Source: a virus
Strand: one strand, 5' to 3'
Virus record (IMG/VR): IMGVR_UViG_3300045733_000002
Coordinates: 1 to 22,280 of that record
DNA: 22,280 nt
Shown here: one piece after another, positions 1,269 to 22,280 of the stretch
Layout: each line of letters begins with the position of its first letter
How positions within the stretch are numbered: position 1 is the stretch's first letter
Position numbers and translations under genes: made by a program
Notes under the pieces: generated by a model
Databases searched by the model: none
What the model was told of the DNA's origin: nothing
Seen by the model: the letters and a program-made list of their open reading frames with translations, nothing else

Positions 1269-2297
1269 ATGGAAAAAATATTATTTGTTTTAAAAGATAG
1301 ACTTTATAATTACTCCAATAAAGTTAATTCCTATGGTTTAATAAATTCATCTTTGCTTTTAGCAGAGTTTTTAAATCACAGAGGGCATGAGTGTAAAGTG
1401 GTTACTGTTGTTGATGCTAATGGCATTGATAAAGAGGTTCATGAGTTTAAACCTGATGTAGTAGTTATAGAAGCTTTGTGGGTACCTACTTATAAATTAA
1501 AAGAGTTATTAGCTATTAAGAGATACCATCATATTAAATGGATTGTTAGAGTTCATAGTGATATAGGATTTCTTAGTACTGAAACACAAGGTCTTAAACA
1601 TCTAAATGATTACATAGGGTTGCATGCTCATAATTTAACTATTTCGTTAAATAGTCGTAAATTTGTTGATGCATTATCTGATGCATTAGATTATAAATTT
1701 ACTTATCTACCTAATGTTGTTAATCTAATAAGAAATAAATTAGACAACAGAGGAGAAAGACAACATATTGATATAGGTTGTTTTGGTGCAACTAGGCTAT
1801 TAAAGAATCAATGTTTCCAAGCTATATGTGCTATTAAGGCAGCTGATGTACTTGGTAAGAAACTATTGTTTCATGTTACACCTAATCTAGAGCAAACCAA
1901 TGATCCTGTATTAGAGAACTTAAAACAATTGTTTCAGTCTAATAAGCATGATTTAATTATACATGATTGGATGCCTAACAATGAATTTCAAGAGTTGATT
2001 AAACACATGGACATAGGTATGCAGGTATCATACACTGAGTCTTTTAATATAGTAGCTGCAGATTTTATAAATAACAATAGGCTAGTACTTGTTAGTGATG
2101 CTATAGATTGGCTACCTAACATTATGAGGACTTCTACTACAGACTACGATGAGGCTGTTAAGAAGATACTTTATATGTATAAGTATAGGAATAGTTATTG
2201 GCTTAAAGAGATGTCAAGGTATAAATTAGAAGAGTATAACAAAGGTGCTAAACACGAATGGGAAGAATTTTTGCATAAATTAGATCATCATAAGTAA
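1269..2297 (+). CDS. Glycosyltransferase, GT-B fold (GT4-like)
   Basis: A 342-residue protein, the usual length for a single GT-B glycosyltransferase. The N-terminus starts with a Rossmann-like strand (KILFVLKD), then a helix (residues about 25-37, SSLLLAEFLNHRGHEC), KVVTVVDA, and FKPDVVVIEAL, the pattern of an acceptor-binding half-domain. The C-terminal half has IDIGCFGATRLLKNQ at about 168-182, typical of the donor-binding half, and a late segment YTESFNIVAADFINNN, which matches the 'ExFG...EA' donor-site region of GT4 enzymes in a degenerate form (the second acidic residue is Asp). It would transfer a sugar from a nucleotide donor; the acceptor is unknown. It starts 4 bases after the previous stop and its TAA overlaps the next ATG (TAATG), so it is translated with the structural genes. 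Its place among virion genes suggests sugar decoration of a phage or host surface component, which is inference. Confidence 0.7.
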   Translation: MEKILFVLKDRLYNYSNKVNSYGLINSSLLLAEFLNHRGHECKVVTVVDANGIDKEVHEFKPDVVVIEALWVPTYKLKELLAIKRYHHIKWIVRVHSDIGFLSTETQGLKHLNDYIGLHAHNLTISLNSRKFVDALSDALDYKFTYLPNVVNLIRNKLDNRGERQHIDIGCFGATRLLKNQCFQAICAIKAADVLGKKLLFHVTPNLEQTNDPVLENLKQLFQSNKHDLIIHDWMPNNEFQELIKHMDIGMQVSYTESFNIVAADFINNNRLVLVSDAIDWLPNIMRTSTTDYDEAVKKILYMYKYRNSYWLKEMSRYKLEEYNKGAKHEWEEFLHKLDHHK

Positions 2298-5442: not shown

Positions 5443-6151
5443 TAGTATTTATTCTATATCATTCGATACACCTTGGTATAAAGACTGCAATCCTATAATG
5501 AGGAACGGAGGAATTTATATTATTAAAAATTGTATAGATGATAAGATATATGTTGGTAGTAGTAAGTGTTTTCATAGAAGGTACCAAAGGCACAGGAAAC
5601 CATTGTTAAACTCAATACACACAAATAAACATTTGCAAAATGCTTTTAATAAACATGGTGCTGATAACTTTAAATTTTTAATCATAGAGATAATAGAAGA
5701 TTTTAATAATTTACTAATCAGAGAACAAAATTGGTTAGATGAATTAATGTCTTACGATAATGTAATTGGATACAACATAGATAGTATAGTTGGACCAATT
5801 CATAATATAGGCAAGTCTCCTAGTGAAGAAACTAGAAGAAAAATATCAGAATCCCTTATAAATAAACATTATTCTAGTGCTAGGAAAGGAGTAACCTTAT
5901 CTGATGAAATAAAAAATAAGATTTCTGATAGTCTTAAGAAATTGAAATTAAATGGATATTGTTTACCTCAAAGTATACCTGTCAAAATGACTAACGTTTT
6001 TTCTGGAGAGGTGGAGGTGTTTGAGTCTATGACCGATGTAAATATAAAATATGGTATCGATAGAACTACTATGTATAAATACAACGGATTAGATAAACTT
6101 ATTAGAAATGTATATAAAATTGAAATACTAAATGATCAACAAATACGATAA
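5435..6151 (+). CDS. GIY-YIG homing endonuclease, I-TevI-like, free-standing
   Basis: A 238-residue nuclease that nicks or cuts DNA at a recognition site and promotes copying of its own gene into alleles lacking it. The catalytic domain (residues 22-118) aligns with I-TevI by eye: GIY at 26-28, YVG at 39-41, then FHRRYQRH with R49 matching catalytic R27, FNKHGADNF, REQNW with E97 matching E75, and GYNI with N114. Next come two NUMOD3-like segments (GKSPSEETRRKISESL at 126-141; KGVTLSDEIKNKISDS at 151-166). A C-terminal helix-turn-helix resembling NUMOD1/IENR1 (FESMTDVNIKYGIDR, about 196-210) would bind DNA. M22 at 5498 aligns with the I-TevI start, so translation may begin there; the ATG at 5435 adds 21 unmatched residues and overlaps the previous gene by 8 bases. 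The 3' end overlaps the next gene by 20 bases. Both neighbours are intact, so this is not inside an intron. Confidence 0.93.
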   Translation: MFNSIYSISFDTPWYKDCNPIMRNGGIYIIKNCIDDKIYVGSSKCFHRRYQRHRKPLLNSIHTNKHLQNAFNKHGADNFKFLIIEIIEDFNNLLIREQNWLDELMSYDNVIGYNIDSIVGPIHNIGKSPSEETRRKISESLINKHYSSARKGVTLSDEIKNKISDSLKKLKLNGYCLPQSIPVKMTNVFSGEVEVFESMTDVNIKYGIDRTTMYKYNGLDKLIRNVYKIEILNDQQIR

Positions 6152-8378
6152 TGCTGCACAAGTGCAGTTCATTAATACATATTCCCCAATACCATTTCAA
6201 GAAATGATGGCAGCAGGACAAATGAAACAAGAGAGGTTTGATAAAGCAGGTGCTGCTATGGATTCTACTATAGCAGCTATGGATGAGATAGTTGCTATAC
6301 CATTCTCTGATGATGAACGTAGGGCTAAAGAGTATTCTGCTAATCTAAGGTCAGTAAGGGATAAGTATACCCATAGAGATATATCTGATCCTTTTGTACA
6401 AAGGGAGATGGCTAATGATCTTAACAAGAGTGTTAATAAAGAAGATATTAAGCATATACAGCAATCTCATGCTGGTTGGTTAGCATACAATAAAGAATTA
6501 GCTGATAATGAATCTAGAGGTGTACCTACTCCAAAATGGAAAGTAAAAGATTTTACTGGCTATGATTCTCAGAAAGGTGTATATACAGGCACAGCACCGA
6601 CTTATAAGAATCCTGCTGCAGAATTAGATCAATTCTTTAAACCTTTAGAGGCTAGAGATAAAGGTACAACTTATGATACCATAAACGGTAAGCGTACTGG
6701 TTATCTAAAAAGTAGCATTGGCATTGATATGAATGACATACAAGGTTATGTAAAAGATAACATGAGTTCTTTGATCACTGGTCCAGCTATGAGGGATATA
6801 ATAGGTGAAGCTAAAGCTAATGGTGATACAAGGAAGGATGAAGAAATAGCATACGATTATGTTATGGCAAATTCATCAAATAGGATTAAATCAACTCCTA
6901 GTTATAGGCAAGACCTTAATCCTGGTGGTGGTAGTGATCAGAACCCTGGTTCTTTAGAGGAACCAGAATTAACTCTTAAAGACGGTGTACTTGAAGGTAA
7001 GGGATTAAGCGCTAGGAAAATAGACAAAGAGATAGCAGTATTAGAAGAAACTTTAAGAAATAATCCTAATGATAAAGCAACTGAAAATAGATTAACTGCT
7101 ATAAAATTACGTAGGTCTGCTGCTGGTAATACAGTACAAGAAGGGGAACATGTATCTCCAAATAAAAAGATTGAAAGTAATAAATTACATCAGGATGAGC
7201 TTACAGCTGAAACTATAAAATCTTTAATTAAAACAGGAATGACTAAGGAGGATGCTACGAGTTACCTGGCATCTAATACTGTAGACTTTATGTCACGTAG
7301 TGGTACTGAAAATGCAAAGGGTATTATTAGTAATATTATCCCTAGTATTGAAAGAATTGCTAGTAAAATTGGTACTGTTCTTAATAATACAGTATCTGAT
7401 GGTAGTATGGTTGATGAGAGCGGGGCTGCTATAACTAGAATGTTAACCCCTGAAGAGAAAAAAGCTAGAATGGACAGAATAAATAAAATAGGCAAAGGTG
7501 ATCTTACTCCTCAACAAATATTACGTGAGTACCAAAATGCTACATCTAGTGTAGAAAGCAGTACAAGAGAACAAGAAAGGATTATAGCCAAAGCTGAAGA
7601 TGAGGCGTTTAATAAAATGGCACCATACCAAAGGACTTACACTGCATTGAATGGTATGTTTGAGTATGATAAAACTAACGATGTATTTAGAGGTACTTAT
7701 CTAGATGATAAAAACATACGGAAAGATTACAATAGTCTTACAGCAAAATTTTTAACTGATGCTGTTTATAATTCTAAGAATTATCAAAAGGTGTTCTTTG
7801 ATGAAAACGGCAAGGAATTAAGTCAAAGGAAACTTGATGATTTACAGAAATTATTAAACAAAAGTAAAGGGTTCTCTGTAAATAAAGTATACAACGAACC
7901 TACTGATCAAGGTGGTGCAGAAGTATCTATTAGATTAAATACAGTTAATACAGCTGGTGCTGTAAATCCAGCTGGTGCAGAGTATAGGGTTAAATTACCA
8001 TTAGATCAATCTATAAATCACAATAATTTTGTTAAGGAATTACAGAGTAGAGGACAGGTTAGGACAGCGTTTAAGTTTGATAATTATCAAGTTATAGAAG
8101 CTGCTGTAAATAGGGTAGGGGTTTATAAAGGTGGTGAGATTCCTTTGCCTTTGATAAGTGATGGAGAAAAAGATATGGAAGATAAGATTATCTTTGATGC
8201 CGATCCTAGGTATGGTGGTCGTGTTATTCCTATACTTATATACGGTGATAAAAACGAAAAGAAAAAACATGCAATGTCTAGAGAACCTGTAGATCTAAAC
8301 AATGTTGCTAATACAATAAGTAATTTCTTACAAAGTCATACTTTTTCTGATATAGAAAATGAAGGAAAAACAATATAA
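6132..8378 (+). CDS. Predicted internal/cargo virion protein
   Basis: A 748-residue, mostly helical and charged protein with no signal peptide or membrane helix. The N-terminus has VQFINTYSPIPFQEMMAAG, then KQERFDKAGAAMDSTIAAMD and a stretch with DISDPFVQREMANDLNK. This 'YxPIPF...Q..R.DK' opening, followed by helical repeats, I recognise from crAss-like phage proteins encoded next to the large RNAP gene. A Gly/Pro/Asn linker lies at about 262-272 (NPGGGSDQNPG). The later half has charged helices (LEETLRNNPNDKATENRL) and a probable beta-rich end (GGAEVSIRLNTVN). The start at 6132 lies inside the last 20 bases of the GIY-YIG gene. It ends in TAA, 9 bases before the giant RNAP gene and in the same frame. 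By position it may be packaged with the RNAP polyprotein, like the capsid cargo proteins of characterised crAss-like phages; that link is inference. Confidence 0.65.
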   Translation: MINKYDNAAQVQFINTYSPIPFQEMMAAGQMKQERFDKAGAAMDSTIAAMDEIVAIPFSDDERRAKEYSANLRSVRDKYTHRDISDPFVQREMANDLNKSVNKEDIKHIQQSHAGWLAYNKELADNESRGVPTPKWKVKDFTGYDSQKGVYTGTAPTYKNPAAELDQFFKPLEARDKGTTYDTINGKRTGYLKSSIGIDMNDIQGYVKDNMSSLITGPAMRDIIGEAKANGDTRKDEEIAYDYVMANSSNRIKSTPSYRQDLNPGGGSDQNPGSLEEPELTLKDGVLEGKGLSARKIDKEIAVLEETLRNNPNDKATENRLTAIKLRRSAAGNTVQEGEHVSPNKKIESNKLHQDELTAETIKSLIKTGMTKEDATSYLASNTVDFMSRSGTENAKGIISNIIPSIERIASKIGTVLNNTVSDGSMVDESGAAITRMLTPEEKKARMDRINKIGKGDLTPQQILREYQNATSSVESSTREQERIIAKAEDEAFNKMAPYQRTYTALNGMFEYDKTNDVFRGTYLDDKNIRKDYNSLTAKFLTDAVYNSKNYQKVFFDENGKELSQRKLDDLQKLLNKSKGFSVNKVYNEPTDQGGAEVSIRLNTVNTAGAVNPAGAEYRVKLPLDQSINHNNFVKELQSRGQVRTAFKFDNYQVIEAAVNRVGVYKGGEIPLPLISDGEKDMEDKIIFDADPRYGGRVIPILIYGDKNEKKKHAMSREPVDLNNVANTISNFLQSHTFSDIENEGKTI

Positions 8379-8387
8379 TACAACATA

Positions 8388-9710
8388 ATGGCTACAAAAA
8401 ACATTATCGATTCTCAGGGAGAAATATTAAATGGCACTCCCCTGGGAACCGAATCAGTGAGCCCTAATACGGGGTTAACATCTGAAAAAGGAAGTTTTAA
8501 AATAGATGCCAAGAAACTAGAAGCTTATCCAGCTGGACCTAAGTCAGAACTTTTAGGTAACGTATACACTGAAGATGTATTGATGCCTAAATCTGTCTAT
8601 AGAGTTCTTGGTGATGACTATCATCCAGAATTTGATCCTGAATATAATGCTAAGCTTCTATCTACTGAACAAAGCAATGGTGGTAAGTTTTTATCAGCAT
8701 TGAACCAAGCAGTGGTTGGTCAAGTGATCGGAGGTACAATATCTGGCTTCGGTTATATGCTTGATCTTCCAATGCTTTTTGATTTAGCAGAAGGCACAGA
8801 ACAGGAGTTTGGTAATGCTGTATCTAGATTTGGTGATAAGATGTCTACTTGGGCAGAAGAAGCTACTCCTGTATATACAGATCCTACTGCACCTAAGTTT
8901 AACCCATCTAGTTTTGAATGGTGGATGAAGAATGCACCGTCAGTTGCATCTACTTTGTCTCTAGTTATACCTTCTATGGCTGGTATGAAAGCCTTACAGG
9001 GTATCTCTAAATTAGTAGGTTTAACTGAAAAGATAGGGGAACTAGGTAAGTTTAGTAAACTATTTACTACTTCTCTAGGCCAGGCTATTATGTCTAGGCA
9101 CATGGAAAATCTTATGGAGTCTAGAGGTGTATATGATCAAGGTCTTAAAGATGCTAAAGATGCATTATACACTAAGTACGGAGATCAAATACAGAAAGAG
9201 TTAGGTGCTGCTAAAGACGAAGGTGAAGCAAATAGTATTGAGAATAAATGGGAGAATGTTATTAGCCAAGAGGCTGTTAAAGTAGCTGCTCTTGGTGCAT
9301 CTAATACTTATAATAAGCAATGGGTAATGTTACTACAGGACTTGCCTGAGTACATGCTATTAAATAGATTCATTGGTGGTAAAGGTAAGGGTGCTAAGAC
9401 ATTATCAATGGCAGCAGCAGCTGAGGAAAAGAGTGCTGCAGTAGCAAAACGTTTAGGTGCTAATATGCCTATGTGGTATACTAAAAATGCTGTCAAACAA
9501 ACTCTTAACGCATTAGGTGAAGGTGGTGAAGAAGCATTCCAGTTTATAAATGAACAGCAGTCTGCTCAGATGATTCGTAACTTAGGGGATCCTGATAAGA
9601 AGACTACGTTTACTGAGGAACTTAAAAACAATTGGGATAATGGTGATTTGTGGACCAATACATTTTGGGGAGCTATGGGTGCAGGCTTTATGCAGGCAAC
9701 TATGGCTGGT
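8388..9710 (+). other. N-terminal region of the giant protein with hydrophobic segments
   Basis: Residues 1-441. There are three uncharged segments: about 106-125 (NQAVVGQVIGGTISGFGYML), about 183-206 (NAPSVASTLSLVIPSMAGMK) and about 426-441 (FWGAMGAGFMQATMAG). Amphipathic helices lie between them. The Gly/Ala-rich spacing is unlike a normal transporter helix and more like membrane-inserting or ejection proteins of podovirus virions. No enzyme motif is seen. A role in passing the host membrane is inference. Confidence 0.4.
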
Positions 9711-12700
9711 GTTAACTCAAAAGCATTGGCTGCGTCTAATCAGGCTAGGCTAAAGAACTTAGATGAGTTTGCTCCACTTATTAATAAACTTCATGCAGCT
9801 TATGCTATAGCAGAAGATGAAGGCGATGAGATGGGTATGGAGAAAGCTAAGAAAGCTTTCATTAGTGCAATTAGTTTAAAAGCAAAAAGATTAGGCAATA
9901 AAGATCATTTGCTTAATATGGTAGATGCTTTTGCTAAAGGTGATGATGATGTATTGTCTAGTTACGAAACTGATAAATCTGATAGAGATTGGTTCAAAGG
10001 TAGAACTGATATAGCCGATGATCTTAAAGCTGATATAAATAATGTATCTAATAAATTTGATGAGGCGTTTACATATTCTAAATCTAAAGGTTTAACAGAC
10101 AAAGAAAGTAACGATATGGCTATGAGAATGGCTCATAGTAACTTTTTACTTGAATTTTTTAATAAGAAATTAGCAGAACATGAAACAATAGCATCTACAC
10201 AACAGGTACCAGGGTATAATGTACCTAATCCAGAGAATAAACAATTATCCAGTGTTGGTAAACAAAAATTTGAGTTAGAGTATGATAAATTTTATCTACA
10301 GAAGAAGTTAAATGCTGTTAATAAAAAATTAGAAAATAAGGATGCATTACCTGCTGATATAGAGGATTGGAATAAGGACAAGAATTACTTAGAGAAAGCT
10401 ATAGCCTTTAAAAACGATAGCATAGGTATACTTGATAAAGAAAAGACTGTAGACAAAAAGCAAAGGGACATAGATACTGAGTTACATGGTGATTTAACTA
10501 AGCCAGAATACAATGGTACAATGCCTAGGGGTAAAGACCCAGAACACCCAGAAATAAAAGGTATATTGGATGTTATAGATACACGTAAAACTATAACAGC
10601 TTATCAAGAGAATATAGATATTTTTAAACGTATGCTGGACCAAACTAGGGCTAGGGTAGACGAAATATCTGCTAGTAGGAAAGCTAAACCTGCTGATAAA
10701 AAACCTACAACCCCTGTTAAACCTGTAGTAGAAGACAAAGAAAATCTAGACATAAGTGACAATGCAACATACATAGGCACAGATGGTCAACCTGGGCGTG
10801 GTAGGGTAATGCATATTGAACATGCTACTACGGATGGAGAAGGTAAAGATAACACACCTAGTGCTGAGAACATTGATAACACTGTGACTATACAACCTAT
10901 TGATGATAAGGGTGAACCAGTAGGTGATTTAGTATATGTTAAAGGTACTACTGTTCAGAAAGAAAGTAGTGATAAGAAAGTAGATGATACAGCAACTAAA
11001 GCAGAAGATAGTCTAGAAGGTGATGAAATAGAAATGTTACCTGAGGGTCCTAAAGACTGGTCAGATTTGGCAGATAACTTAAAGGATTCGTATAGGAGAC
11101 AGAGTGGTTCTCCACTTGCAGGACTTATAGAATTTCTATCTTATACCGAGTATGATGATAGTATACCTAAAGAAGCTAGGGGTCGTGGTGTACTTAGGAG
11201 ATTGTTAGTTAGAGATAAGAGTTTAAATAAATTTATATCTAACCCAGCTAATCAAAAGTATTTAGCAAGTGCTATTGCAACATATAGCTTTGATTTAAAT
11301 AATGAAAAGTTTGTAAAGGACATAAATACAGCTGTAGAAGCTAAAAGACTACGAAGTGATCAAGCACATTATATATTAGAATTTATAAAGACTGGTAAAC
11401 GTCCTAAGACTAATCATAGGGGTGATGTATTAAAAGAAAGTGACTGGCAGAAAGAATTAGCTAGTTTAATGACTTTGCCAGAGTTTGTTGATTTGCCTAT
11501 CAAGATAGAACTTACTATAAATGGCCAGACGTTTAAGGAACGTTTGTTCATGCATACTATATATAAGACTAGGCAATCTTTAAGTATTAATAATAAAGAA
11601 CTTGGTTCTTTAATGTCTACTTACACATCTATGCGTAAGCAGATGATCACTCATTTGATAAACGGTGATCAAGTATACACTCAAGGTCTTGCTACTAGCA
11701 GGGGTAACCCAACTAATATAGATAAAACTAATGATCCTAGTATAAGTCAAAAAGATAGGGCAGAAAAGAGAAAGAATAACATACTAGACGTATTTGGTTT
11801 AACTTATGATAATGTAGAATTATTTATACTTAAATCAGGTACTAAGACTATGGATGCTAAGTCTTATTCAAGACCTAAATTATTCAGGGATAATGATTCT
11901 CCACCAGAGGCTATGTCATACGATTTCAACTCTGTTGGTTCTGTTATGATAAGGACCAATAGAACTGTAGACGGTCAATGGTATGCAGTTAAACTTAACA
12001 AGTCTTATATATCAGGTGAACATGCTGCAATAATATTCAATGCATTTAGCATGCTTGCTAAAACAGAACTTACTAAAGAAGGTGGGTTCTTACCTGCTGG
12101 CAATAGGAAATTTATAGGTAGGTACAATGCACCTATAGATCCACGTGTAAAGAAAGGTACTGAGGCAGAGGAGTCTGTGTTATGGAATATATCTATTGGG
12201 GAATTCTTAGATTTAATGGTAGTTCATGGTGAGGAATTAACTGATCCAGATAGTTCCAGGTATAAGTATGTCAATGAGAAGAACTCCATGTCTGAGGATC
12301 ATAAGAGATCTTTGAAACTTAAAAGGTTATTCTTAAGACGGGGCTATGGTTTAGATGGCAAGGTAGATGGTATATATTTATGCTATGGTCTTACTAAGAT
12401 AAAAGATAAAACTACTGGTGAAGTAACTTGGGGTACTCCGAATGTTATAAACACTTCTAAAATTGGAGTTCAAGAATCTGTAGATTATAATATGATTAAC
12501 TTAACTGAGTTAATCAAAACCCCTACACAGAAAACAGCACATGATGCAGCAGTTGATGATTTTATGGAATGGGTACAGGAAAATAAAACATATGCTGTTC
12601 ATCTAGAAAATAGAAGGTTGTTTCAAAAACTTAATGGGGGATTTTTAGGTGGTAAAAGTTTTAGGATAGGTAAGGCTGGTAAACGATTTCATCCAGGTGA

Positions 12701-15700
12701 TTCTAATAATAAACAATATTCATATACTACTGCAGGTGAAATAACTAGGCAAAAAAATGAATCTTACGTAGAGTTCTTAATAAGGAATAATTTCATAACC
12801 ACTGATATAGAAGAACGTGATGGTGTAATATTTGATACTCCACATGTAGAGCTAGGTCTTAGTAGGAACAAAGGTGAAAACTATGGAATTCAGGTTGTTA
12901 AGAAAGACAAAGAGTTACCTGATACTACGGCTATAAAAGAAAATCCAAAAGGCACAAGGCGTGTAGTAGCTGATAAAGATAATCCTGCTACTACTATTAA
13001 AGTACCTAAAGAGGAAGTTATAGCACCACCTGTAGTTGAGGAAAAGCCACCTGCAGCTGAAGAGGCACAACCTGCTGAAACTAAACCTAAAAGAACTAGA
13101 ACTCCTAAGGGTAAATTTGATGAGAAATTTAGAGAACGAGAAGATCTAACAAAAGTATATGAAGTACAAGATTTAGTAGAGGAGTTAAGGTGGCTCAGAA
13201 AGACTTTGAACTTAGGTAAGGATGAAGTTGAGATAGAGAAAGATGTAGCTAAAATGGTATTTAATGGTAAGAATGCATGGGGTGTATTCAGTAGTGCCGG
13301 TATGATCATATACGAAGCTGCTGAGAAAGGTACTATATATCACGAGGCATTCCATAAGGTTAACTTAGCATTTCATAGTAAAGCAGAACGTGAGATGATA
13401 TATCGTGCTGCTCGACAGTTATATCATATGTCTAAAGAAGAGTTTACAGACAATCAAGTAGAGGAGAAATTAGCAGAAGAGTTTAGGGACTTCGTTATTA
13501 CTAAACAAAAAGCATCTCAACCTAGTTTTATCAAGCGTGTATTCCAGAGGATATACAATTTTATAAATGCATTATTTTTTAGGGCAGGTTCAAGGTTAGT
13601 ACAGTCTGATATAGACAGGTTATTCAATCAAATACATTCAGGTAAATATAGGTTTGCTAAGACTCTAAAAGAGAACAAACTCATAGAGCCACGTCTAAGG
13701 TCTATAATGGGTGAAGACTTTGATACTATTAGTACATATGAAGATATTACTAATATGCAAAAGTATTTGGCCACTAGGTTATATGAAGTAAGTGGTGTAC
13801 AGAATCTCAAAAGTTCTCGTGATTTTAGATTCGATAAACTAGTCATGGAGATGGAAGAGGATATTATGCAATTGGAATATGATTTGCAAGATCCAAATTT
13901 ACCTGATGCTAGGAGGAATAGGTATATAAAATTATTAGCATCTCTAAAGGATGTACTTGGTGAGAAAGATGAAACTGGTTTCTATCCTAAGTTCACTATA
14001 TTTGTAAAATATATAAATAGGTATTTCTCAGGTTTAGGTGTTAAAAAGAGAAATAACAAAGAGGAAGATGATAGTATAGAGGATCAGGGTAGTAGGTACG
14101 ATGAGTGGTTATCTGATGAAGAAACAAGTAGAGTTGGTGGTGAATATGGTATGGAAGACTTTTTTCATTCATTACAAGATGGTACGTTAGCTAGTGTTAA
14201 ATTTTTCATAAACACTTTGCATGAATCTTCAGATTGGAATGAAAGGACAGGTTATAGGACATTTGTAGATGGTAATTTTGTATGGTATAAATTATTGAAT
14301 GACATAGCTCAATATGACAATGTGTCTGAAATGATAAATGAGATCAGGAGAATTGGTGAGTATGACAACTATTATCCATATATGGAACTGGCTGATAAAT
14401 TAGAGGATGCCACTGAAGAGTTTCGTACTCAATTCCAAATCTCATTTGAAGTGTATAAGCATGTACATTTATTAGTACAATTCACTAGGGCTGAAGGTAA
14501 AGATAATAAAGAAATAAACATGTCCTTTGATAGTGCTACAAGGGAACAGTTATCTAGAACTACTGTACTCAAGTGGAATGAATTAATGCAAGCAGATAGG
14601 AGTGTTATTGGATTACCTGGTACTAAGTTTGGTGATTCTACTATTACAGCAAGGAATAAGGACGTAAACACTAAGTTTTTTGAAGAGTTATTAAAAGAGT
14701 TTGACGAGAAGGTCACAGGTTTTTATGATGATAAGGTAAAGGATGGACCGTTAATATCTGATAAAGATGTAGATACTCTATTTAAAAGAGCTTCTAAGAT
14801 GCTAGACAAAATACACATCAGTATTAAACCAGATGTATTAAGACACTACGCTACTAATTTGAGTGATAAAGAACTTAATAAAAACTTATATAAATTTGTT
14901 AGGAATTTAAGGAGTTTAATGGGCCAAGAGATAGTGCTAGATAATGAAGGCGATATAATACAGTATATGAAGAATACTATTATATTATCTTTATCGGAAG
15001 CATATGCTAATGTTAACAAGCACGAAGAGGCAGATATGGTAGTAGGTCCAGAAGGTCACATGATATGGCGTTATGGTAAGTTAAACCTACCTACTAGTTA
15101 TTTGAGGAAGATAAAGAAAGATTCTAAATGGGCAGAAGGAAGACGTAATTCTGTAGGTAAAAAAGGTTCTAGGATATTAAGTTCTTTTGTTCCTAAGTCT
15201 GATTCAGAAGAAGATGTAGCAACAGCTAGTGCCTATAGAGATAAGTTTGGATTAATGACTATGTCTAGTTTTAAAAGGCAAAGTAACTATGCTTCAAGTA
15301 GTAGGGACTATTTACATTTAACTAGACAAGAAGATTATTTATTTAAAGCTTATAGTATACTAGAAGGTAAGATGTTACCTTTCCCAGTAATGGCTGATAG
15401 GGGTGGTTATTTTGAAATGATTGGTGCTGATTTAATAGGTATATCAGAAGGGGATATGACATCTAATGTTATAACTAGCCTTACACCAGAAGGTGATGTT
15501 GTATTTACAGACGATGTTATAAATGCATTTTATAAATACTACGAAGATGAAAAAGAGATAATAGATGCAGCCTTAGAAGTTAGGAAAACTTACAGGGAAG
15601 GTGTTGAGTTATTTAAAAAAGAGAATGCTAAACCTGATGCTGATAAAGCATATTTGAAAGCATATTCTAGAGATCTTAGAAGTAAACTTATAAAAAATTA

Positions 15701-18700
15701 CCATTATGGCTTTGATAAGAATGGTAAGATGGATCTTAATCTAGGCAATGCTTATAATTTTATACACTTCAAAGGTTTTGAGAAATATAAAACAGTAGAG
15801 GAAATAAGGGTAGGTATAGGCCAATTGTTAAACGATAGGCTAAAGGATGAAATAAAATTTACTTTAAAGCATGATATAATAGGTAGCAACCCAAGTAAAG
15901 AGACACCTGGTGGGATACTGTATCATAACATATTACTAAGTAGTAAGTACACAGAGGCTAATGAGGATATACTAGTTAAGAATTTTGGTATAATATCTGC
16001 ATTGTCTCAAATACTTGTTAATACACAAATAGGTGTAATGGAATCTGAGAAATTGTTTTTAGCAGATCATGCTCAATTTCAAAGGAATTCTAAAGATCCT
16101 GATAATTTTGATACATATGAACAAGTTTATAAGAGGTGGTTTGGTGTCGGTGGTACAGGTACTAAACTAAGGGTTAACATACCTGGTAGGCGTACTTCTT
16201 ACAATGCATCTACTCTCAATACTCAAAAATTTAAATCTCCTGTATTTGATCTTCTAGTTCCTAAACACGAAGAGTTGTATAGGGAAATGCTGATGTCTAA
16301 ATTATCTAAAGAGGAGTTAAAAGACGAACTTAAATTAGCTAGCGTTAAGGTATTAGCTAGGGACCTTGCTGAAAAGCGTTTGTCTAAATATGAGAATGTT
16401 GACTCAACTGATGGTGGTGCTTTTATATCCCCAGAGATGTTCTATGAGATTAGTGATAGACTTGGTATGTGGAGTGATAGAAAGCAAAAAGCATTTGATT
16501 TACTTAATTCAGATGAAAAACTTACAGCAGCTCAAATATTAGCAGCTAGTAATATAATATTCAATCCATTAAAGACTATGTATATAGGACACCATGATTT
16601 CAATGGTGTTGATATGCTAGTGTACAACAAGATGGCTATGTTCACTTTGTTTAGGCAACATGTTAAAGGCACTCATTTGGAAGAAGTGCTGGATAGAATG
16701 GAGACTAAAGGTAAATATGCAGATAAGAAATTAGAGAAGATACATGTTTATAATTTTGATACAGCTGTTAAGGTAGGTGGGCTAATGGGTATGGACTTGT
16801 TCACCAGTGCTACTAAAAGGAATGAAGTAAGTGATTTATCTGGTTCTTTAGTATTCAAACAAAGCTTTGGCAACCTTAGTCATCAACAGGTTATAGATCC
16901 TCACAATGGTATGAGCCAAACCTTTGGTACAGCAGGCTTTAAAATAGCCAGTGCGGATGTAATTAAAGATAGTAAATATAGTGACTTTGGTACTGGGGAA
17001 GAATTGCTAGACGCTCTTCATTATGCTAGGGCTACTTTGAGTGACTTTGGTATACATAGAGTGGATGCAACCTTTGGTATGTCTAATGGTAAAATATCTA
17101 ATAAAGCATTTCTAGATATATTACGTGATGCTGCTGAAGGTGCTAATAAATCTTTTGATTTTCAACAAGCTTTAAGGATAGAGGAGAATGGTGAAAAATA
17201 TCTAGAGATAGATTCATTTAACGATAGGAAATGGATATATGCTAGGATAAAAACTATAGTAGACGAACTTACAGTAGACTTAAATACCCCAGGTAATCAG
17301 CTGGTACAGATGAGTGATTACGGTATGAATAAGACTGCAAGTTATACTGAAGAACTTAATTTCACTAGGTCTGAAGTAAAAGCTGAAGGGTCTGAAGAAC
17401 CTACGAAAGTATATGAAATGGAATGCAGGGTATCTATCAGGCTATTTAAGAATTTCTTTCCACATGGGCATATTATAACTCAGCCTGAGATTCAAATGCT
17501 ATTGGATAGTAGCCCTCAGTTATTTGGTTATCGTGTTCCTACACAGGGTCAGAACTCATTAGTAAGACTAAGGGTTGTAGACCTATTGCCAGAACAAGCT
17601 GGTGATATAATACAGTTACCATTAGAGTTTACTGCTTTGACTGGTTCTGACTTTGATATAGATAAGTTATATGTAGCTATGCATAATTACATATCAGAAA
17701 CTGATAAGCAAGGCAATATTAAATTATCTAAAATAGCATATTCAACTAGTGAAAAAGAAGCACAATCTAGGTGGAATAACAAAGTATTAGAGTTATATGA
17801 TATATATAAAGATTCTATAGAGTCTCTTAGGGGAATGTCTACACAAGATGTAACTATTTCTATTCTTTCTATAATTGACAAATACTATGGTAAAATAACT
17901 AATCATGGTACATACAAACAACGTCATCCAGAGGAAGAGAGTATAGGTAACACCCCTATAGGTGATAGCCTATCAGCAGAACAAGTAGAAGCGCTTAGGA
18001 ACTTAGGTAGAGAGAATCAGAATATACCAGATGATATTGGTACTGTAGACAGTACAGAGAATGCAGAAAGGGGTACTTACTTAAACGAAAGACTCAATTT
18101 ACTTGCTAGGATAGCATCCATAGAAAAGAAAATAGCAGATAAAAGTGGTAATGAAATATACAAAGAACATTTACAACAAGACTTAAGACAAGCTAGGGGT
18201 AAATTAAATAAAATGGTGGATGAATCAAATGTAGTTCCTAAAAACAATCTAATGTCTGAATTCATATCAGAGTTTGATTTAAAGGTACTAGGTGATTATT
18301 TTGTTAAGTCTGGTAAGATACTATCACTCGAAGAGTTCTCTAAATTGCCATTAGAACAGCAGAACACTACTAAAGCTTTGCAGAATAGGTTGTTAGATTT
18401 AATGATGACAATATTAGGTGATGAGAAACACTTTGTAAATTCTACTACACCACTTGGTGTTATGAATGATGTATTGTATGCTAAGAAAGATTTTTACACT
18501 AAAGCATATAATCCTAGTGAATACACAAGTGCTCCTGGGTTGTATACAACTACTCCATCTTTCCAGTCTGCTATGAAGGAAAAGTTTTCAGCTGCTAAGT
18601 TTGGTATAGCTCCTTATGCATTAGGTAACAACCATCATGCATTAACTCAGATGGCTGGTGTAATAATGCAAGAGTCTAAATTAGACTTAGGGTTTAATAA

Positions 18701-21700
18701 AAAAGGTGAAATAGACCTATCTAGAGTAACAGGTGAGGATGGTATGTATATAACTTGGTGGATATCGGCTTTGATAGACATACATGTTGATGGTGTTAAC
18801 AAGCCTATAGCTACATCTCTTAATATAAATGAAGCTACTCATGATATGGTCAACTTCCTTATAAGGGCAGGGTTAGGTGATACTACCTTTGATTTTATTA
18901 ATCAGCCTGTTATGAGGGACTATTCACATTCTTATTTCAATGTTAATAAAAAATATGGTAAAGATAGTAATAGGATATCAACTATAGACAGTACTGATGA
19001 ATTAAGAGACCTTAATGAAAAATGGAAGTATACTTTGCTTAATGAAGGGGTTTTAACAGAAGAACAGTTTGATGCATTTGATAAAAGTTATAAGATACCG
19101 TTACCACAGTTATTAAACAAGGCTCAATTGCGAGCAGATGCTATTGAATCAACTAAACCTAATAAGAGTAAAGCATATTATATAAGGCAATATTCTATAT
19201 CACGCTACTTAGAAGATCTTAAAAAGGATTCAAATGATTTACGTTCATTCGTATTAGCTTGTAGGGTAGATACTAAAAAATATGGTGCTAATCCTGTAGA
19301 GATATTCCACTTCTTAGATACTATATATAACGTAATGCACAACAGCTCTCTTCCTCCAGTAGATGGTAAGAGAGGTAGTAGATTTAAAAACATAGAGCGT
19401 ATTTTAACTACTGATAAAAATTATAAGTATAAGAAAGGTGATACATTCTTACCAACTATAATTAGGAATAGTATGTATAAGATATATGACTTACTAAAGA
19501 ACGATAGTATATATGCTACCAGGGGGTTCAATATGATATTGAACGATATGATTGATTCTACTAGGAATGGTGACTTTGTAAGGAAGAGTATGATCAATAC
19601 TACCATGGAAGAGTTGATGACTTATTTCATTGGCAAGTTTTTCTCAGATCCAGTAGATGGGTTAGGTTTAACTACAAATGATGTTAGGCACTTAATAGTA
19701 GAATTAGACAACAAAGATTCTATATATGAAACTCTTTTGAAATTAAAGACCCCTAACGATCCATTGTATGAAGAAGTTAAAAACAATCCATTATTGAATA
19801 CTTTGATAGTAGATCTTTCTGATGCTATTTTAGAAGATAGAGCAGGGGAACCTATTCCTTATATGTATATAAAAACTCCTTATAGATCTAAGAGTAATGA
19901 GTTAACTAAAGAAGAGTTACAGGAAGGTTTTAAAGATTTATTCTCTAGTCCTAATGAAAGGCTTAGGGATTTGGCAATGTCATTGTATATATATTCATTT
20001 TATACTTCAGGTTTTAGACAGAGGCTAACTTCATTCTCTTCCTATATACCTATATATATGAACAAAGAGTTTAAGTATAAAGGTAAGGTAGTTAGTTTAA
20101 ATGAACACATGAAAAAAATACTAAATAAACTATCGACAGAATATGGTTACTTAGAGTATTTGGCAGAGGCTAAGAGAGAAGTGTTCACTAACATGTGGGA
20201 TACAGAAGGTTACGCTTTTGCTATAGATGATTATATTGGTAAAGAGAACGGTATAAAAGTGTTGAAGAATTTCTCAGATGAAAATTCTGATTCGTTAGGT
20301 ATTAAAATAAAAACAGAAGGTAAGACTGTATTGTCTAGAATGTCACTTGGTGTTAATGCTAGAAAAGAAAATATATTTGTTCCATATATAAAATTTGCTA
20401 GTAACTTATATGAATACATGGGATATGATAAAGCTGATGGTTCCATGTATTATGTATCAGTATCTAAGAAAGGTTTAGGTTCTAATGGTCATGGTAGTAA
20501 AGGTTTGTTTATATATGAAACTGGTTTGGGTAGCATAGATGATAGATTACCTAATGAATCAATGTTAGGAAAAACTAGCAATAACCCTACTAGGAGTGGT
20601 GCTACAGTCAGGGCTAAGAAAGATAGAATTATAAAGAATGGTATAGCAATAGTTAATGCAAATTTGTTAAATTTCGTAGAGGTACCTTTAGAGAATCAAA
20701 TAGTTGCTGATAAATATGCAAGTTTAGCAACTACTTTTTTTGATAAGGATGAAAGTGATGCTGACATACTAAGGCGTCAAGACCAGTTAGCTGCTGTTGA
20801 ACTCAAACGTATGAATGATCAAGACAAGTTACGTAAAAATGCTTTTGATACTGCTACTGCTAGTGATTTTAATGTAAATGATAACTTAAGCATAGAGAGT
20901 GATACAGAGGAATTATTTCCAGGTGAAGATCCAGCTAATAGGGCAGCTAAGAAACACACATCAAATTTAAAAGCTAGCAAAGATAATATGACTACAGAGG
21001 AGAACCCTATTATAATAAGTATAGATGGTTCATCTAAAGGTGAACAAAACAATCATGTGTTAGGTGTAGGAGCATATTCTAAATTTGGTGATAAAGAATA
21101 TTTCTTATATAGAGATGATTCATCAATACGTGGTATGATTGATAGGCTAGCAGGTAGTAGAGGTGTAAAGGTACCAGAAGATATGTCAAATGGCATAGCA
21201 GAGGTATATGCATTGTTATCAGTGATGGCAACGTTTAAGGATACTTCAGAGAATATATTGATAGAAAGTGATAATGAATTAGCCTTATACCTATTTAAGG
21301 ATCATATGATAAACCCAGGTGATAAACCAATTAAAACTGCTGGGAATCCTATTATAAAGATACTACACGAACTTATAACTAAATATATAAATCAACTTGA
21401 AAGTAACGGTGGTTCTGTTAAACTCAGATATACAAAGACTAAATCTACAGCTAATTCTAAAATCGTAGACAAGGTGGCCAAGGGGGAACATAAAATAAAT
21501 ATTGAACACAATGACTTTAAAGATGAGAAATGGGGTGTACCTATTAAATTTACACCAGCTCCTATAATAAATGTTAATAAAGAGTTTACAGGTCATTCCG
21601 GTGGGGCACCAGGGACATCAAAAGTTGGTAGTGAAGCAAGGTGGTCTTCTGATTTAATATGGGAAGATGAAGGTACTGATCATGGTGTTAATTGGGAGAA

Positions 21701-22280
21701 CTTTAGTTTCAAAGGTCATAATCATGGTAGTAGGAAGACTACAGATGTACGTCAGATAGAGAGTTTACCTGTTTCTTCTGTAGATAAAGCAAAATTAGAA
21801 TATGCAAAAGCTGCTGCACAACTAGGTAAGAATGTAGCTAATAAGGAATATACTTATAAACTCATGCTTAGGAATTGGTTCCAAGTTAAATCATCAGATG
21901 GTATATATGCTATAGGTAGACTTGATTTAGGCAAAGGTCAAGTAGATGGTGGTACTGGTTATGCAGTTCAGATGGCTATAAATAATAATAAACTATTGTT
22001 TGTATACGATCTACAAAGTAGGCGTTGGTATAAATATGATTATGTATCAGATAAATTTATGCACTATGCTGCTACACCTATACTAGTTAAGAATTTTGCA
22101 GGTATAGGAACACGTGGTAGTGCTAGTGGTGATAGCTTAATGGATAAAGAAACCTATGATTTAATTAAGTCTGTAGTTAAAGCAGTGTATGATAAGACAT
22201 TTGGGGAATCTAAACCAGTTGATCCAAAGGTTAGTCCACCAGAAGCAAATAAAAGTAATGAAACAAATAAAACTTGTTTG
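8388..22280 (+). CDS. Giant virion RNA polymerase polyprotein: zincin, RNAP, RNase H-like, SLOG-like (3' partial)
   Basis: One frame runs from ATG 8388 to the right edge with no stop: at least 4631 residues, end not seen. No Shine-Dalgarno is visible; the leader is A/T-rich. Order of parts: residues 1-440, hydrophobic patches; about 440-760, charged helices; Pro/Lys linker about 760-785; about 785-1540, mixed region of unknown function; Pro/Glu linker about 1539-1579; zincin metallopeptidase about 1620-1720; RNA polymerase module about 2305-4024 with GSDFDID (Asp 3088, 3090, 3092); RNase H-like about 4206-4368; SLOG-like about 4400-4606; Pro-rich linker at the edge. Known crAss-like virion RNAPs are single chains related to the two-barrel polymerases, are packaged, and transcribe early genes after injection. 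This chain is about twice the length of the characterised phi14:2 enzyme because extra domains are fused at both ends. The role as an injected polymerase is inferred from that family. Confidence 0.93.
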   Translation, partial: MATKNIIDSQGEILNGTPLGTESVSPNTGLTSEKGSFKIDAKKLEAYPAGPKSELLGNVYTEDVLMPKSVYRVLGDDYHPEFDPEYNAKLLSTEQSNGGKFLSALNQAVVGQVIGGTISGFGYMLDLPMLFDLAEGTEQEFGNAVSRFGDKMSTWAEEATPVYTDPTAPKFNPSSFEWWMKNAPSVASTLSLVIPSMAGMKALQGISKLVGLTEKIGELGKFSKLFTTSLGQAIMSRHMENLMESRGVYDQGLKDAKDALYTKYGDQIQKELGAAKDEGEANSIENKWENVISQEAVKVAALGASNTYNKQWVMLLQDLPEYMLLNRFIGGKGKGAKTLSMAAAAEEKSAAVAKRLGANMPMWYTKNAVKQTLNALGEGGEEAFQFINEQQSAQMIRNLGDPDKKTTFTEELKNNWDNGDLWTNTFWGAMGAGFMQATMAGVNSKALAASNQARLKNLDEFAPLINKLHAAYAIAEDEGDEMGMEKAKKAFISAISLKAKRLGNKDHLLNMVDAFAKGDDDVLSSYETDKSDRDWFKGRTDIADDLKADINNVSNKFDEAFTYSKSKGLTDKESNDMAMRMAHSNFLLEFFNKKLAEHETIASTQQVPGYNVPNPENKQLSSVGKQKFELEYDKFYLQKKLNAVNKKLENKDALPADIEDWNKDKNYLEKAIAFKNDSIGILDKEKTVDKKQRDIDTELHGDLTKPEYNGTMPRGKDPEHPEIKGILDVIDTRKTITAYQENIDIFKRMLDQTRARVDEISASRKAKPADKKPTTPVKPVVEDKENLDISDNATYIGTDGQPGRGRVMHIEHATTDGEGKDNTPSAENIDNTVTIQPIDDKGEPVGDLVYVKGTTVQKESSDKKVDDTATKAEDSLEGDEIEMLPEGPKDWSDLADNLKDSYRRQSGSPLAGLIEFLSYTEYDDSIPKEARGRGVLRRLLVRDKSLNKFISNPANQKYLASAIATYSFDLNNEKFVKDINTAVEAKRLRSDQAHYILEFIKTGKRPKTNHRGDVLKESDWQKELASLMTLPEFVDLPIKIELTINGQTFKERLFMHTIYKTRQSLSINNKELGSLMSTYTSMRKQMITHLINGDQVYTQGLATSRGNPTNIDKTNDPSISQKDRAEKRKNNILDVFGLTYDNVELFILKSGTKTMDAKSYSRPKLFRDNDSPPEAMSYDFNSVGSVMIRTNRTVDGQWYAVKLNKSYISGEHAAIIFNAFSMLAKTELTKEGGFLPAGNRKFIGRYNAPIDPRVKKGTEAEESVLWNISIGEFLDLMVVHGEELTDPDSSRYKYVNEKNSMSEDHKRSLKLKRLFLRRGYGLDGKVDGIYLCYGLTKIKDKTTGEVTWGTPNVINTSKIGVQESVDYNMINLTELIKTPTQKTAHDAAVDDFMEWVQENKTYAVHLENRRLFQKLNGGFLGGKSFRIGKAGKRFHPGDSNNKQYSYTTAGEITRQKNESYVEFLIRNNFITTDIEERDGVIFDTPHVELGLSRNKGENYGIQVVKKDKELPDTTAIKENPKGTRRVVADKDNPATTIKVPKEEVIAPPVVEEKPPAAEEAQPAETKPKRTRTPKGKFDEKFREREDLTKVYEVQDLVEELRWLRKTLNLGKDEVEIEKDVAKMVFNGKNAWGVFSSAGMIIYEAAEKGTIYHEAFHKVNLAFHSKAEREMIYRAARQLYHMSKEEFTDNQVEEKLAEEFRDFVITKQKASQPSFIKRVFQRIYNFINALFFRAGSRLVQSDIDRLFNQIHSGKYRFAKTLKENKLIEPRLRSIMGEDFDTISTYEDITNMQKYLATRLYEVSGVQNLKSSRDFRFDKLVMEMEEDIMQLEYDLQDPNLPDARRNRYIKLLASLKDVLGEKDETGFYPKFTIFVKYINRYFSGLGVKKRNNKEEDDSIEDQGSRYDEWLSDEETSRVGGEYGMEDFFHSLQDGTLASVKFFINTLHESSDWNERTGYRTFVDGNFVWYKLLNDIAQYDNVSEMINEIRRIGEYDNYYPYMELADKLEDATEEFRTQFQISFEVYKHVHLLVQFTRAEGKDNKEINMSFDSATREQLSRTTVLKWNELMQADRSVIGLPGTKFGDSTITARNKDVNTKFFEELLKEFDEKVTGFYDDKVKDGPLISDKDVDTLFKRASKMLDKIHISIKPDVLRHYATNLSDKELNKNLYKFVRNLRSLMGQEIVLDNEGDIIQYMKNTIILSLSEAYANVNKHEEADMVVGPEGHMIWRYGKLNLPTSYLRKIKKDSKWAEGRRNSVGKKGSRILSSFVPKSDSEEDVATASAYRDKFGLMTMSSFKRQSNYASSSRDYLHLTRQEDYLFKAYSILEGKMLPFPVMADRGGYFEMIGADLIGISEGDMTSNVITSLTPEGDVVFTDDVINAFYKYYEDEKEIIDAALEVRKTYREGVELFKKENAKPDADKAYLKAYSRDLRSKLIKNYHYGFDKNGKMDLNLGNAYNFIHFKGFEKYKTVEEIRVGIGQLLNDRLKDEIKFTLKHDIIGSNPSKETPGGILYHNILLSSKYTEANEDILVKNFGIISALSQILVNTQIGVMESEKLFLADHAQFQRNSKDPDNFDTYEQVYKRWFGVGGTGTKLRVNIPGRRTSYNASTLNTQKFKSPVFDLLVPKHEELYREMLMSKLSKEELKDELKLASVKVLARDLAEKRLSKYENVDSTDGGAFISPEMFYEISDRLGMWSDRKQKAFDLLNSDEKLTAAQILAASNIIFNPLKTMYIGHHDFNGVDMLVYNKMAMFTLFRQHVKGTHLEEVLDRMETKGKYADKKLEKIHVYNFDTAVKVGGLMGMDLFTSATKRNEVSDLSGSLVFKQSFGNLSHQQVIDPHNGMSQTFGTAGFKIASADVIKDSKYSDFGTGEELLDALHYARATLSDFGIHRVDATFGMSNGKISNKAFLDILRDAAEGANKSFDFQQALRIEENGEKYLEIDSFNDRKWIYARIKTIVDELTVDLNTPGNQLVQMSDYGMNKTASYTEELNFTRSEVKAEGSEEPTKVYEMECRVSIRLFKNFFPHGHIITQPEIQMLLDSSPQLFGYRVPTQGQNSLVRLRVVDLLPEQAGDIIQLPLEFTALTGSDFDIDKLYVAMHNYISETDKQGNIKLSKIAYSTSEKEAQSRWNNKVLELYDIYKDSIESLRGMSTQDVTISILSIIDKYYGKITNHGTYKQRHPEEESIGNTPIGDSLSAEQVEALRNLGRENQNIPDDIGTVDSTENAERGTYLNERLNLLARIASIEKKIADKSGNEIYKEHLQQDLRQARGKLNKMVDESNVVPKNNLMSEFISEFDLKVLGDYFVKSGKILSLEEFSKLPLEQQNTTKALQNRLLDLMMTILGDEKHFVNSTTPLGVMNDVLYAKKDFYTKAYNPSEYTSAPGLYTTTPSFQSAMKEKFSAAKFGIAPYALGNNHHALTQMAGVIMQESKLDLGFNKKGEIDLSRVTGEDGMYITWWISALIDIHVDGVNKPIATSLNINEATHDMVNFLIRAGLGDTTFDFINQPVMRDYSHSYFNVNKKYGKDSNRISTIDSTDELRDLNEKWKYTLLNEGVLTEEQFDAFDKSYKIPLPQLLNKAQLRADAIESTKPNKSKAYYIRQYSISRYLEDLKKDSNDLRSFVLACRVDTKKYGANPVEIFHFLDTIYNVMHNSSLPPVDGKRGSRFKNIERILTTDKNYKYKKGDTFLPTIIRNSMYKIYDLLKNDSIYATRGFNMILNDMIDSTRNGDFVRKSMINTTMEELMTYFIGKFFSDPVDGLGLTTNDVRHLIVELDNKDSIYETLLKLKTPNDPLYEEVKNNPLLNTLIVDLSDAILEDRAGEPIPYMYIKTPYRSKSNELTKEELQEGFKDLFSSPNERLRDLAMSLYIYSFYTSGFRQRLTSFSSYIPIYMNKEFKYKGKVVSLNEHMKKILNKLSTEYGYLEYLAEAKREVFTNMWDTEGYAFAIDDYIGKENGIKVLKNFSDENSDSLGIKIKTEGKTVLSRMSLGVNARKENIFVPYIKFASNLYEYMGYDKADGSMYYVSVSKKGLGSNGHGSKGLFIYETGLGSIDDRLPNESMLGKTSNNPTRSGATVRAKKDRIIKNGIAIVNANLLNFVEVPLENQIVADKYASLATTFFDKDESDADILRRQDQLAAVELKRMNDQDKLRKNAFDTATASDFNVNDNLSIESDTEELFPGEDPANRAAKKHTSNLKASKDNMTTEENPIIISIDGSSKGEQNNHVLGVGAYSKFGDKEYFLYRDDSSIRGMIDRLAGSRGVKVPEDMSNGIAEVYALLSVMATFKDTSENILIESDNELALYLFKDHMINPGDKPIKTAGNPIIKILHELITKYINQLESNGGSVKLRYTKTKSTANSKIVDKVAKGEHKINIEHNDFKDEKWGVPIKFTPAPIINVNKEFTGHSGGAPGTSKVGSEARWSSDLIWEDEGTDHGVNWENFSFKGHNHGSRKTTDVRQIESLPVSSVDKAKLEYAKAAAQLGKNVANKEYTYKLMLRNWFQVKSSDGIYAIGRLDLGKGQVDGGTGYAVQMAINNNKLLFVYDLQSRRWYKYDYVSDKFMHYAATPILVKNFAGIGTRGSASGDSLMDKETYDLIKSVVKAVYDKTFGESKPVDPKVSPPEANKSNETNKTCL
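13245..13560 (+). other. Zincin-like metallopeptidase domain of the giant protein
   Basis: Residues about 1620-1725. GTIYHEAFHKVNLAF places HExxH at H1652, E1653 and H1656. About 41 residues later EEKLAEEFRDF supplies E1697/E1698 as a likely third zinc ligand, the gluzincin-like arrangement seen in the metallopeptidases of phage polyvalent proteins. It is preceded by GMIIYEAAEKGT and followed by a basic helical stretch (FIKRVFQRIYNFINALFF). All residues needed for zinc binding and catalysis are present. It sits just after a Pro/Glu-rich linker and ahead of the polymerase. It could process this polyprotein or attack host or virion proteins; the target is unknown. Confidence 0.8.
15300..20460 (+). 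other. RNA polymerase module (two double-psi beta-barrel type) of the giant protein
   Basis: Residues about 2305-4024, borders approximate. Motifs in order: LTRQEDYLFKAY...PVMADRGGYFE (D2337); FNPLKTMYIG; a barrel with FDTAVKVGG (K2795) and GTAGFK (K2852), candidates for the conserved lysines of the first barrel; YRVPTQGQNS (R3049), matching the RxPTxHR region of beta'; GSDFDIDKLYVAM with metal-binding Asp 3088, 3090 and 3092; KFGIAPYALGNNHHALTQ at about 3404-3421, in the bridge-helix/trigger-loop region; YTSGFRQRLTSF (3872-3883). DFDID in place of the cellular DFDGD is the signature of crAss-like virion RNAPs. The module lies wholly within one chain. It would synthesise RNA from phage DNA; early transcription after injection is the established role in this family. 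Confidence 0.9.
21003..21491 (+). other. RNase H-like domain of the giant protein
   Basis: Residues about 4206-4368. All four acidic positions of an RNase HI fold are present in order and spacing: D4213 in IIISIDGSSKG, E4272 in NGIAEVYALLS, D4295 in NILIESDNELAL, and D4361 in NSKIVDKVAKG, which matches the 'N..AD.lA..G' end of the family. The first motif is followed by a glycine/hydrophobic strand (VLGVGAYSKFG), as in the second strand of RNase H. Intact catalytic residues suggest an active enzyme that cleaves RNA in RNA:DNA hybrids. Fusion behind a polymerase on one chain suggests clearing of hybrids or primer-like RNA during early transcription, which is inference. Confidence 0.8.
21585..22205 (+). 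other. SLOG-like (DprA/LOG superfamily) nucleotide-binding domain of the giant protein
   Basis: Residues about 4400-4606. A glycine-rich N-terminal loop (FTGHSGGAPGTSKVGSEARW, S4404 GG) is followed by a segment similar to SLOG proteins that read SGGA.GSD..WG. Then come LMLRNWFQVKSSDGIYAIGR, DGGTGYAVQMAI (GGTG at 4521-4524), the typical SLOG phosphate loop, and LVKNFAGIGTRGS (4572-4576). This set matches SLOG-type domains I know from gut-phage giant proteins and polyvalent proteins. Such domains bind nucleotides or nucleotide-derived ligands. The ligand here cannot be told from sequence. The SGGA motif reads SGGAPGTS, without the usual Asp after Ser, so binding may be altered. Confidence 0.65.

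Follow-up and report, generated by a model that had tools for sequence, protein, structure and literature searches.

The question raised by this locus is what kind of protein is encoded by a frame of at least 4631 residues that runs to the very end of the DNA, and how such a chain relates to the separately coded cargo proteins of other crassviruses. No viruses are commoner in the human gut than crassviruses, and the answer matters for how megadaltons of crassvirus cargo leave the head and for what that cargo does first. The window analysed here is the entire IMG/VR record IMGVR_UViG_3300045733_000002 (22,280 bases), so that the window edge is also the end of the contig. The giant frame (8388..22280, + strand) starts with ATG and stays free of stops for 4631 codons up to the contig end, just as the first-pass annotation had described it, and its domains follow the order peptidase, polymerase, RNase H, SLOG. 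The features of the window are as follows.

3..1265, + strand: muzzle protein, C-terminal part (PF25731, E 1e-64; PF25729, E 3e-14)
4018..5442, + strand: cargo-type protein of 474 aa without Cys (phmmer 2e-20 to cr53, and to others in the same place)
6132..8378, + strand: cargo-type structural protein of 748 aa without Cys (homologues at the equivalent position in L017, 4e-44, cr55, cr53 and cr50)
8388..13007, + strand: N-terminal part of the giant, residues 1–1540 (collinear with L017, 51% identity)
13155..13517, + strand: zincin-type metallopeptidase domain, about residues 1590–1710 (H1652, E1653, H1656 and E1693)
15486..18926, + strand: crass virion RNA polymerase core, residues 2367–3513 as matched to 6vr4 (phmmer E 8e-29)
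21000..21512, + strand: RNase HI-type domain, about residues 4205–4375 (tetrad D4213, E4272, D4295, D4361)
21579..22208, + strand: SLOG domain, about residues 4398–4607 (phrog_768, E 4e-8)
22209..22280, + strand: disordered C-terminal tail (pLDDT <50), in which Cys4630 (NKTCL) is the candidate junction cysteine

The order of genes in the window (muzzle, two short ORFs, cargo-type gene, GIY-YIG gene, cargo-type gene, giant) is that of Crassvirales, and the crassvirus neighbourhood is present in the form of the muzzle (PF25731/PF25729) and the cargo homologues upstream of the polymerase giant. The product of 4018..5442 is a homologue of the Suoliviridae gene that lies between the muzzle and the next cargo gene, and 6132..8378 is the counterpart of the gene immediately upstream of the giant in relatives. 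The two ORFs between muzzle and cargo genes (342 and 571 aa, within 1269–4012) are without clear family, the 342-aa ORF, which is the first of them, giving merely weak glycosyltransferase-like matches. The GIY-YIG homing endonuclease gene (5435–6151) overlaps the cargo-type genes on both sides, and GIY-YIG genes are found near tail genes in the relatives cr113_1 and cr4_1 as well.

An assembly chimera or a chance frame was ruled out by collinear relatives on independent contigs. In L017, an independent contig from another metagenome, one ORF is collinear with residues 7–4385 of the giant at 51% identity with the RNase H included, and L018 and L097 also align to it through the RNase H at 42–45% identity, so the fusion is no accident of assembly and the frame is not a composite of separate genes; the exact RNase H–SLOG junction is seen in the window contig only.

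All four domains named in the first-pass annotation proved real. The N-terminal part of the giant stands where other crassviruses have a separate cargo protein of the gp67/gp47 type, and residues 1516–1718 match residues 2015–2218 of crAss001 gp47 (E 8e-15). The HExxH zincin signature (HEAFH, residues 1652–1656) follows, and its H, E and H together with the downstream Glu are invariant across 32 aligned sequences. With the peptidase model (pLDDT 78 overall, AF2 core >90) a plain Foldseek search gave nothing significant, and on a second look the structure matched mainly zincins (anthrax lethal factor Z 6.4, IrrE 5.9, PPEP-1 5.4, ArdC 4.9), a modest fold match with Z no higher than 6.4. For the peptidases of polyvalent proteins, lethal factor has been named as a structural relative and ArdC proteins as context (PMC5512222). 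The polymerase match is to the solved phi14:2 gp66 (PDB 6vr4); its catalytic D3088xD3090xD3092 (DFDID, residues 3088–3092) is encoded at 17649–17663, the DxDxD motif is kept in all relatives compared and the polymerase extends to about residue 4120. A search of the record with PF04998 gave no match, presumably because the crass polymerase is too distant from cellular RNAP profiles.

Both C-terminal folds were obtained when the structure of the last 442 residues was predicted (AlphaFold, pLDDT 79). The RNase H part of this model matches RNase HI (Z 13.2, 131 aligned, 2.7 Å) and carries the motifs IDGS (4212), AE (4271), SDN (4294) and VDK (4360), the D-E-D-D tetrad being invariant among relatives. 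Queried alone, the window RNase H had no match in Pfam, among PDB sequences or with a profile, and a single-query search of IMG/VR for its close relatives returned none, but a three-row RNase H profile recovered L097/L098 where the single query had failed and the RNase H of the relative L018 clears the PF00075 cut-off. The identification thus rested on relatives and structure rather than on the window sequence by itself, and from its family the domain would act on RNA:DNA hybrids. The SLOG part gave Z 12.7 (148 aligned) against 3imk, a putative molybdenum carrier that we take to have the cpYpsA-type SLOG fold. The SLOG part carries HSGGAPG (4403), and the motifs SGGxxG...D and GGT...NFAGIGTR have their invariants kept in a 16-row alignment (A6). 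The window SLOG alone passed no Pfam cut-off; its relatives score weakly to several Pfam SLOG families (cpYpsA, YAcAr, DprA, LDcluster4) and the window to none, so that close membership of any single Pfam SLOG family receives no support from the Pfam comparison. Its description as a nucleotide sensor, acting on nucleotide signals, would follow from the fold family. In the model the last 24 residues of the giant are disordered, and a Cys tail of this kind is also found in relatives.

On this evidence the window giant is probably a ‘polyvalent’ injected protein, namely the virion RNA polymerase of a phage in Crassvirales close to Suoliviridae. It resembles phi14:2 gp66 (6vr4) and crAss001 gp50 in the polymerase core, the DxDxD motif and the place in the virion-cargo cassette, but unlike them it has the zincin protein joined on at its upstream side and RNase H and SLOG added at the other; beyond the column where window residue 4030 is aligned, about 94 residues follow in gp66 and 602 in the window. 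The Suoliviridae giants, of 4300–5800 aa, unite the gp67-type and gp66-type parts in one chain and the window follows the same plan, peptidase–polymerase fusion being the rule among the Suoliviridae compared. Zincin and polymerase are likewise in one chain in cr113_1 gp38, cr109_1 gp53, cr130_1 gp79 and cr4_1 gp26. Of the two domains that the first-pass annotation took to be added behind the polymerase, both are present, but SLOG was already there in cr113_1, cr109_1 and cr130_1 (annotated only as ‘DprA-like’), whereas RNase H of the window type was not found in these three giants or in that of cr4_1. cr130_1 differs further by adding NADAR and DUF7831, and all four read TAG as Gln, which the window does not. 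The likeness to the polyvalent proteins of Iyer et al. 2017 (PMC5512222) lies in a long multi-domain chain of polymerase, zincin and variable effectors, and the window chain has the two or more unrelated enzyme domains with a zincin signature by which such proteins are recognized; the terms crass, YAcAr, NADAR and RNase H do not appear in the main text of that paper. The N4-like virion RNA polymerase is of an unrelated, T7-like family. The virion polymerase of Klebsiella phage Pylas (L003, Schitoviridae) has a domain of the same SLOG family at about residues 985–1165, but there it precedes the unrelated N4-type (T7-like) polymerase and no RNase H is seen beside it; a BLAST overlap of Pylas with the RNase H part proved to be linker only, and an RNase H in that polymerase was rejected.

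The idea of an injected multi-enzyme package stands as the best reading by homology, and it is for delivery that homology has to serve. The phi14:2 cargo consists of gp67, gp66 (the polymerase) and gp65, all three with virion MS/MS annotation, and crAss001 gp47, gp49 and gp50 were detected in virions by mass spectrometry (PMC10172136); by analogy the window giant would be packaged in the virion and injected. The label ‘polyprotein’ was not borne out, as we know of no cleavage evidence for the giant chain. It is nevertheless conceivable, if somewhat doubtful, that the zincin frees the domains after injection and the chain is a true polyprotein: its active-site residues are invariant and processing by their own zincin has been proposed for polyvalent proteins, but the N4 virion polymerase, also zincin-bearing, is packaged unprocessed (both PMC5512222).

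The region behind the polymerase was surveyed by fetching 80 crass polymerase loci and scanning 48 C-terminal extensions. These contained SLOG (11), RecD/Dda helicase (6), DUF7831 (5), NADAR (4), RNase H (4) and A1S_2505 (4), with payloads that occur once, such as a 2OG-Fe oxygenase, also among the 48 C-terminal regions, and across relatives the polymerase C-terminus carries SLOG, cpYpsA, NADAR, A1S_2505, DUF7831, a RecD-like helicase or nothing. Several payloads may share one chain (SLOG, NADAR and DUF7831 in cr130_1; A1S_2505, NADAR and SLOG in L036). RNase H marks the clade of the window (L017, L018, L021, L097 and also L020), and directly behind this same RNase H comes SLOG in the window, cpYpsA in L097 (E 2e-20), A1S_2505 in L018 and nothing in L017. 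SLOG is present in only 12 of 138 loci (8 after the polymerase core, 4 before it) and is therefore accessory. From such comparisons the polymerase C-terminus looks like a variable payload bay, in which accessory effectors are exchanged at a fixed slot and which offers a list of candidate first-minute counter-defence enzymes. The payload set overlaps an NAD/ADP-ribose toolkit proposed to counter host signalling (PMC9503650), of which NADAR and cpYpsA are members and which A1S_2505, judged by sequence, appears to resemble. A tentative alternative, to which we give the smaller share of belief, is that RNase H and SLOG just happen to be joined to the polymerase and serve routine DNA metabolism (removing primers or R-loops; handling single-strand DNA in a DprA-like way), with no counter-defence role. 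Housekeeping would predict an RNase H common to the whole clade, as is found, the phrog_768 label is DprA-like, and the RecD/Dda helicases among the other payloads are DNA enzymes; but the NADAR and cpYpsA companions belong to the set that reviews tie to counter-defence (PMC9503650), and payload swapping among close relatives suits an arms race better than housekeeping. In several crass lineages the virion polymerase is followed in the same chain by a RecD/Dda-type SF1 helicase (the C-terminus of L010/L022; L065, L071 and L073). In L041 a SLOG (ORF residues 1262–1483) sits between the polymerase and a fused gp65-like part, in a chain without cysteine.

The second property of these giants lies in their cysteines. 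Cys makes up 0.13% of the giants, which might be expected of proteins threaded through a tail; N4-like polymerases have been reported without any Cys, threading through the tail being the reason given by the authors (PMC3715699, PMC3915230). Against this background a Cys stands within the final few residues of nearly every polymerase, and at residue 2–7 of the cargo protein that follows. In the first set of loci with a separate next gene, a Cys stood at the C-terminal end of the polymerase in 54/55 cases and at the N-terminal end of the next protein in 55/55, whereas none of the 14 polymerases fused to the next protein had the C-terminal Cys, and 13 of these 14 fused ORFs (2300–5600 aa as seen) had no cysteine anywhere. 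For the next gene the start codon closest to the preceding stop was chosen, without regard to Cys, and the homology of the fused part to the gp65-type protein was checked by profile (E <1e-110). From the composition of each protein about 1/55 would be expected, and among the other ORFs of the same loci 16% had a Cys within the final nine residues and 8% within the first nine. Because the nine-residue limits had been set after the first examples, a fresh sample was taken with a different query and with repeated contigs removed. Here the counts were 38/38 for the polymerase C-end and 37/38 for the next-protein N-end where the next gene was separate, and 0/4 for the C-end of ORFs with extensions of more than 1900 residues (fused); eight polymerases without an adjacent next gene nonetheless ended in Cys, and four interrupted or short polymerase frames lacking the end Cys were left uncounted either way. 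Pooled, the two sets give 92/93, 92/93 and 0/18, respectively, counts that overstate independence because the loci are related.

The same holds at the upstream junction, where separate same-strand neighbours had Cys on both sides in 10/10 of the pairs taken as real (L066, L071, L073, L086, L096, L110, L118, L159, L169, L177), a count that omits ORFs with an unplaceable start or neighbour (e.g. L120, L121, L127, L179). In phi14:2, gp67 ends in SNTIC, gp66 starts with MAC and ends in KQECK, and gp65 starts with MSC; in crAss001 the C-end of gp47 is ALRCNS, gp50 starts with MSKRC and has a Cys nine from its end (...NDKICGANTLYEL), and gp49 starts with MAKKC. The outer ends are unmarked, with Cys at the C-end of the gp65-type protein in 2/55 and no N-terminal Cys in gp67 or gp47. 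Two loci that are split upstream and fused downstream (L165, L169) keep the upstream N-terminal Cys and lack the C-terminal one. In a FastTree phylogeny of the polymerase core the fused state falls in several separate clades, the number of fused/split changes being 6 with L080 wrongly scored as fused. A reading of L080 as ‘fused without Cys’ (TAG read through) was rejected, as with the standard code it is split and has Cys on both sides (KEENKC / MAQSC). The sole Cys of crAss002 gp32 is at 2019 of 2020 and fits the junction pattern; gp33 downstream of it (L101, locus 11243) has probably been annotated with a start some 32 codons too early, an internal start giving MSCTPS.

In principle the terminal cysteines could be a nucleotide-level trait of tight gene junctions (start context, overlap or recoding) rather than a trait of the proteins, and the very short intergenic gaps at most pairs and the use of TGT for 48/52 of the Cys codons would fit this. 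We consider it highly improbable, given that 21 distinct combinations of offsets from stop and start occur, that the ends in crAss001 persist with gp47 on the opposite strand and not adjacent to gp50, that the polymerases lacking an adjacent next gene are still Cys-ended, and that the other ORFs of the same loci and the downstream ends of gp65-like proteins have a terminal Cys only at the low frequencies given above. The sequence pattern is best read as head-to-tail tethering of separate cargo chains, probably through disulfides, which would serve in place of gene fusion. Mature crAss001 virions do hold several disulfides, in the tail and portal vertex (PMC10172136), but these join structural proteins, and the end cysteines might instead bind metal, form homodimers or link the chains to the portal or capsid. 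We regard this as unlikely, since the Cys sits at exactly those ends that are fusion points in other lineages and disappears once they are fused, a loss that neither a metal site nor a homodimer predicts, and since L165 and L169 show it side by side with the retained Cys of the split junction.

Tethering thus remains the preferred reading, and we think it reasonably probable that crass phages join their injected transcription proteins covalently via facing-end cysteines, as reversible disulfides, with a swappable counter-defence bay before the tether. By homology, the giant would be packed in the head, travel through the tail in an unfolded state and fold again inside the host, its polymerase part then transcribing early genes. 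Judging from their families, the RNase H might degrade the RNA of RNA:DNA hybrids near the first transcripts, and the SLOG might bind or cleave NAD- or ADP-ribose-type nucleotides, blunting host defence signalling in the first minutes. The cysteine pattern suggests that the Cys tail would form a bond with the N-terminal Cys of the gp65/gp49-type cargo protein that follows, and more generally that the zincin protein C-end would be linked to the polymerase N-end and the polymerase C-end to the gp65/gp49 N-end. The bond, probably a disulfide reduced in the cytoplasm, would let separate chains exit the head as one ordered thread, so that, with their ends joined by disulfides, the products of separate genes would behave in ejection like that of one fused gene. 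If true, the cysteine tether would be a new and simple way to order and co-deliver separately coded injected proteins. What is new relative to known giants is the swappable payload bay together with the cysteine-marked facing ends; in the open-access literature (subscription papers being outside the scope) nothing relevant was found on SLOG, NADAR, polyvalent proteins or a C-terminal cysteine in crassviruses, and judged against that literature the cysteine pattern may be new.

The same pattern bears on where the giant ends. The first-pass annotation had it continuing past the edge, and indeed no stop precedes the contig end; a long continuation is improbable, however, as the SLOG is complete by about residue 4607 (judged against the standalone SLOG genes in L004–L006) and is followed by NKTCL, the Cys tail of the relatives, so that the chain probably ends at, or a few codons beyond, the contig end. 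Since these last visible residues fit a Cys tail, the stop is predicted to lie no more than a few codons on, and the gene that follows to have an early cysteine.

Two minor observations concern the reading of the polymerase frames. The giant polymerase genes of many relatives (L001, L002, L008, L009, L011, L012, L014, L026, L032, L036 and others) open only with TAG as Gln (code 15), while those of the window, L017, L018, cr50_1 and cr55_1 use the standard code. In L068 (10001–10132), L124 (10001–10129) and L127 (10001–10135) the polymerase frame stops inside or just past the start of GSDFDID, as if an intron or inserted element occupied the active-site codons.
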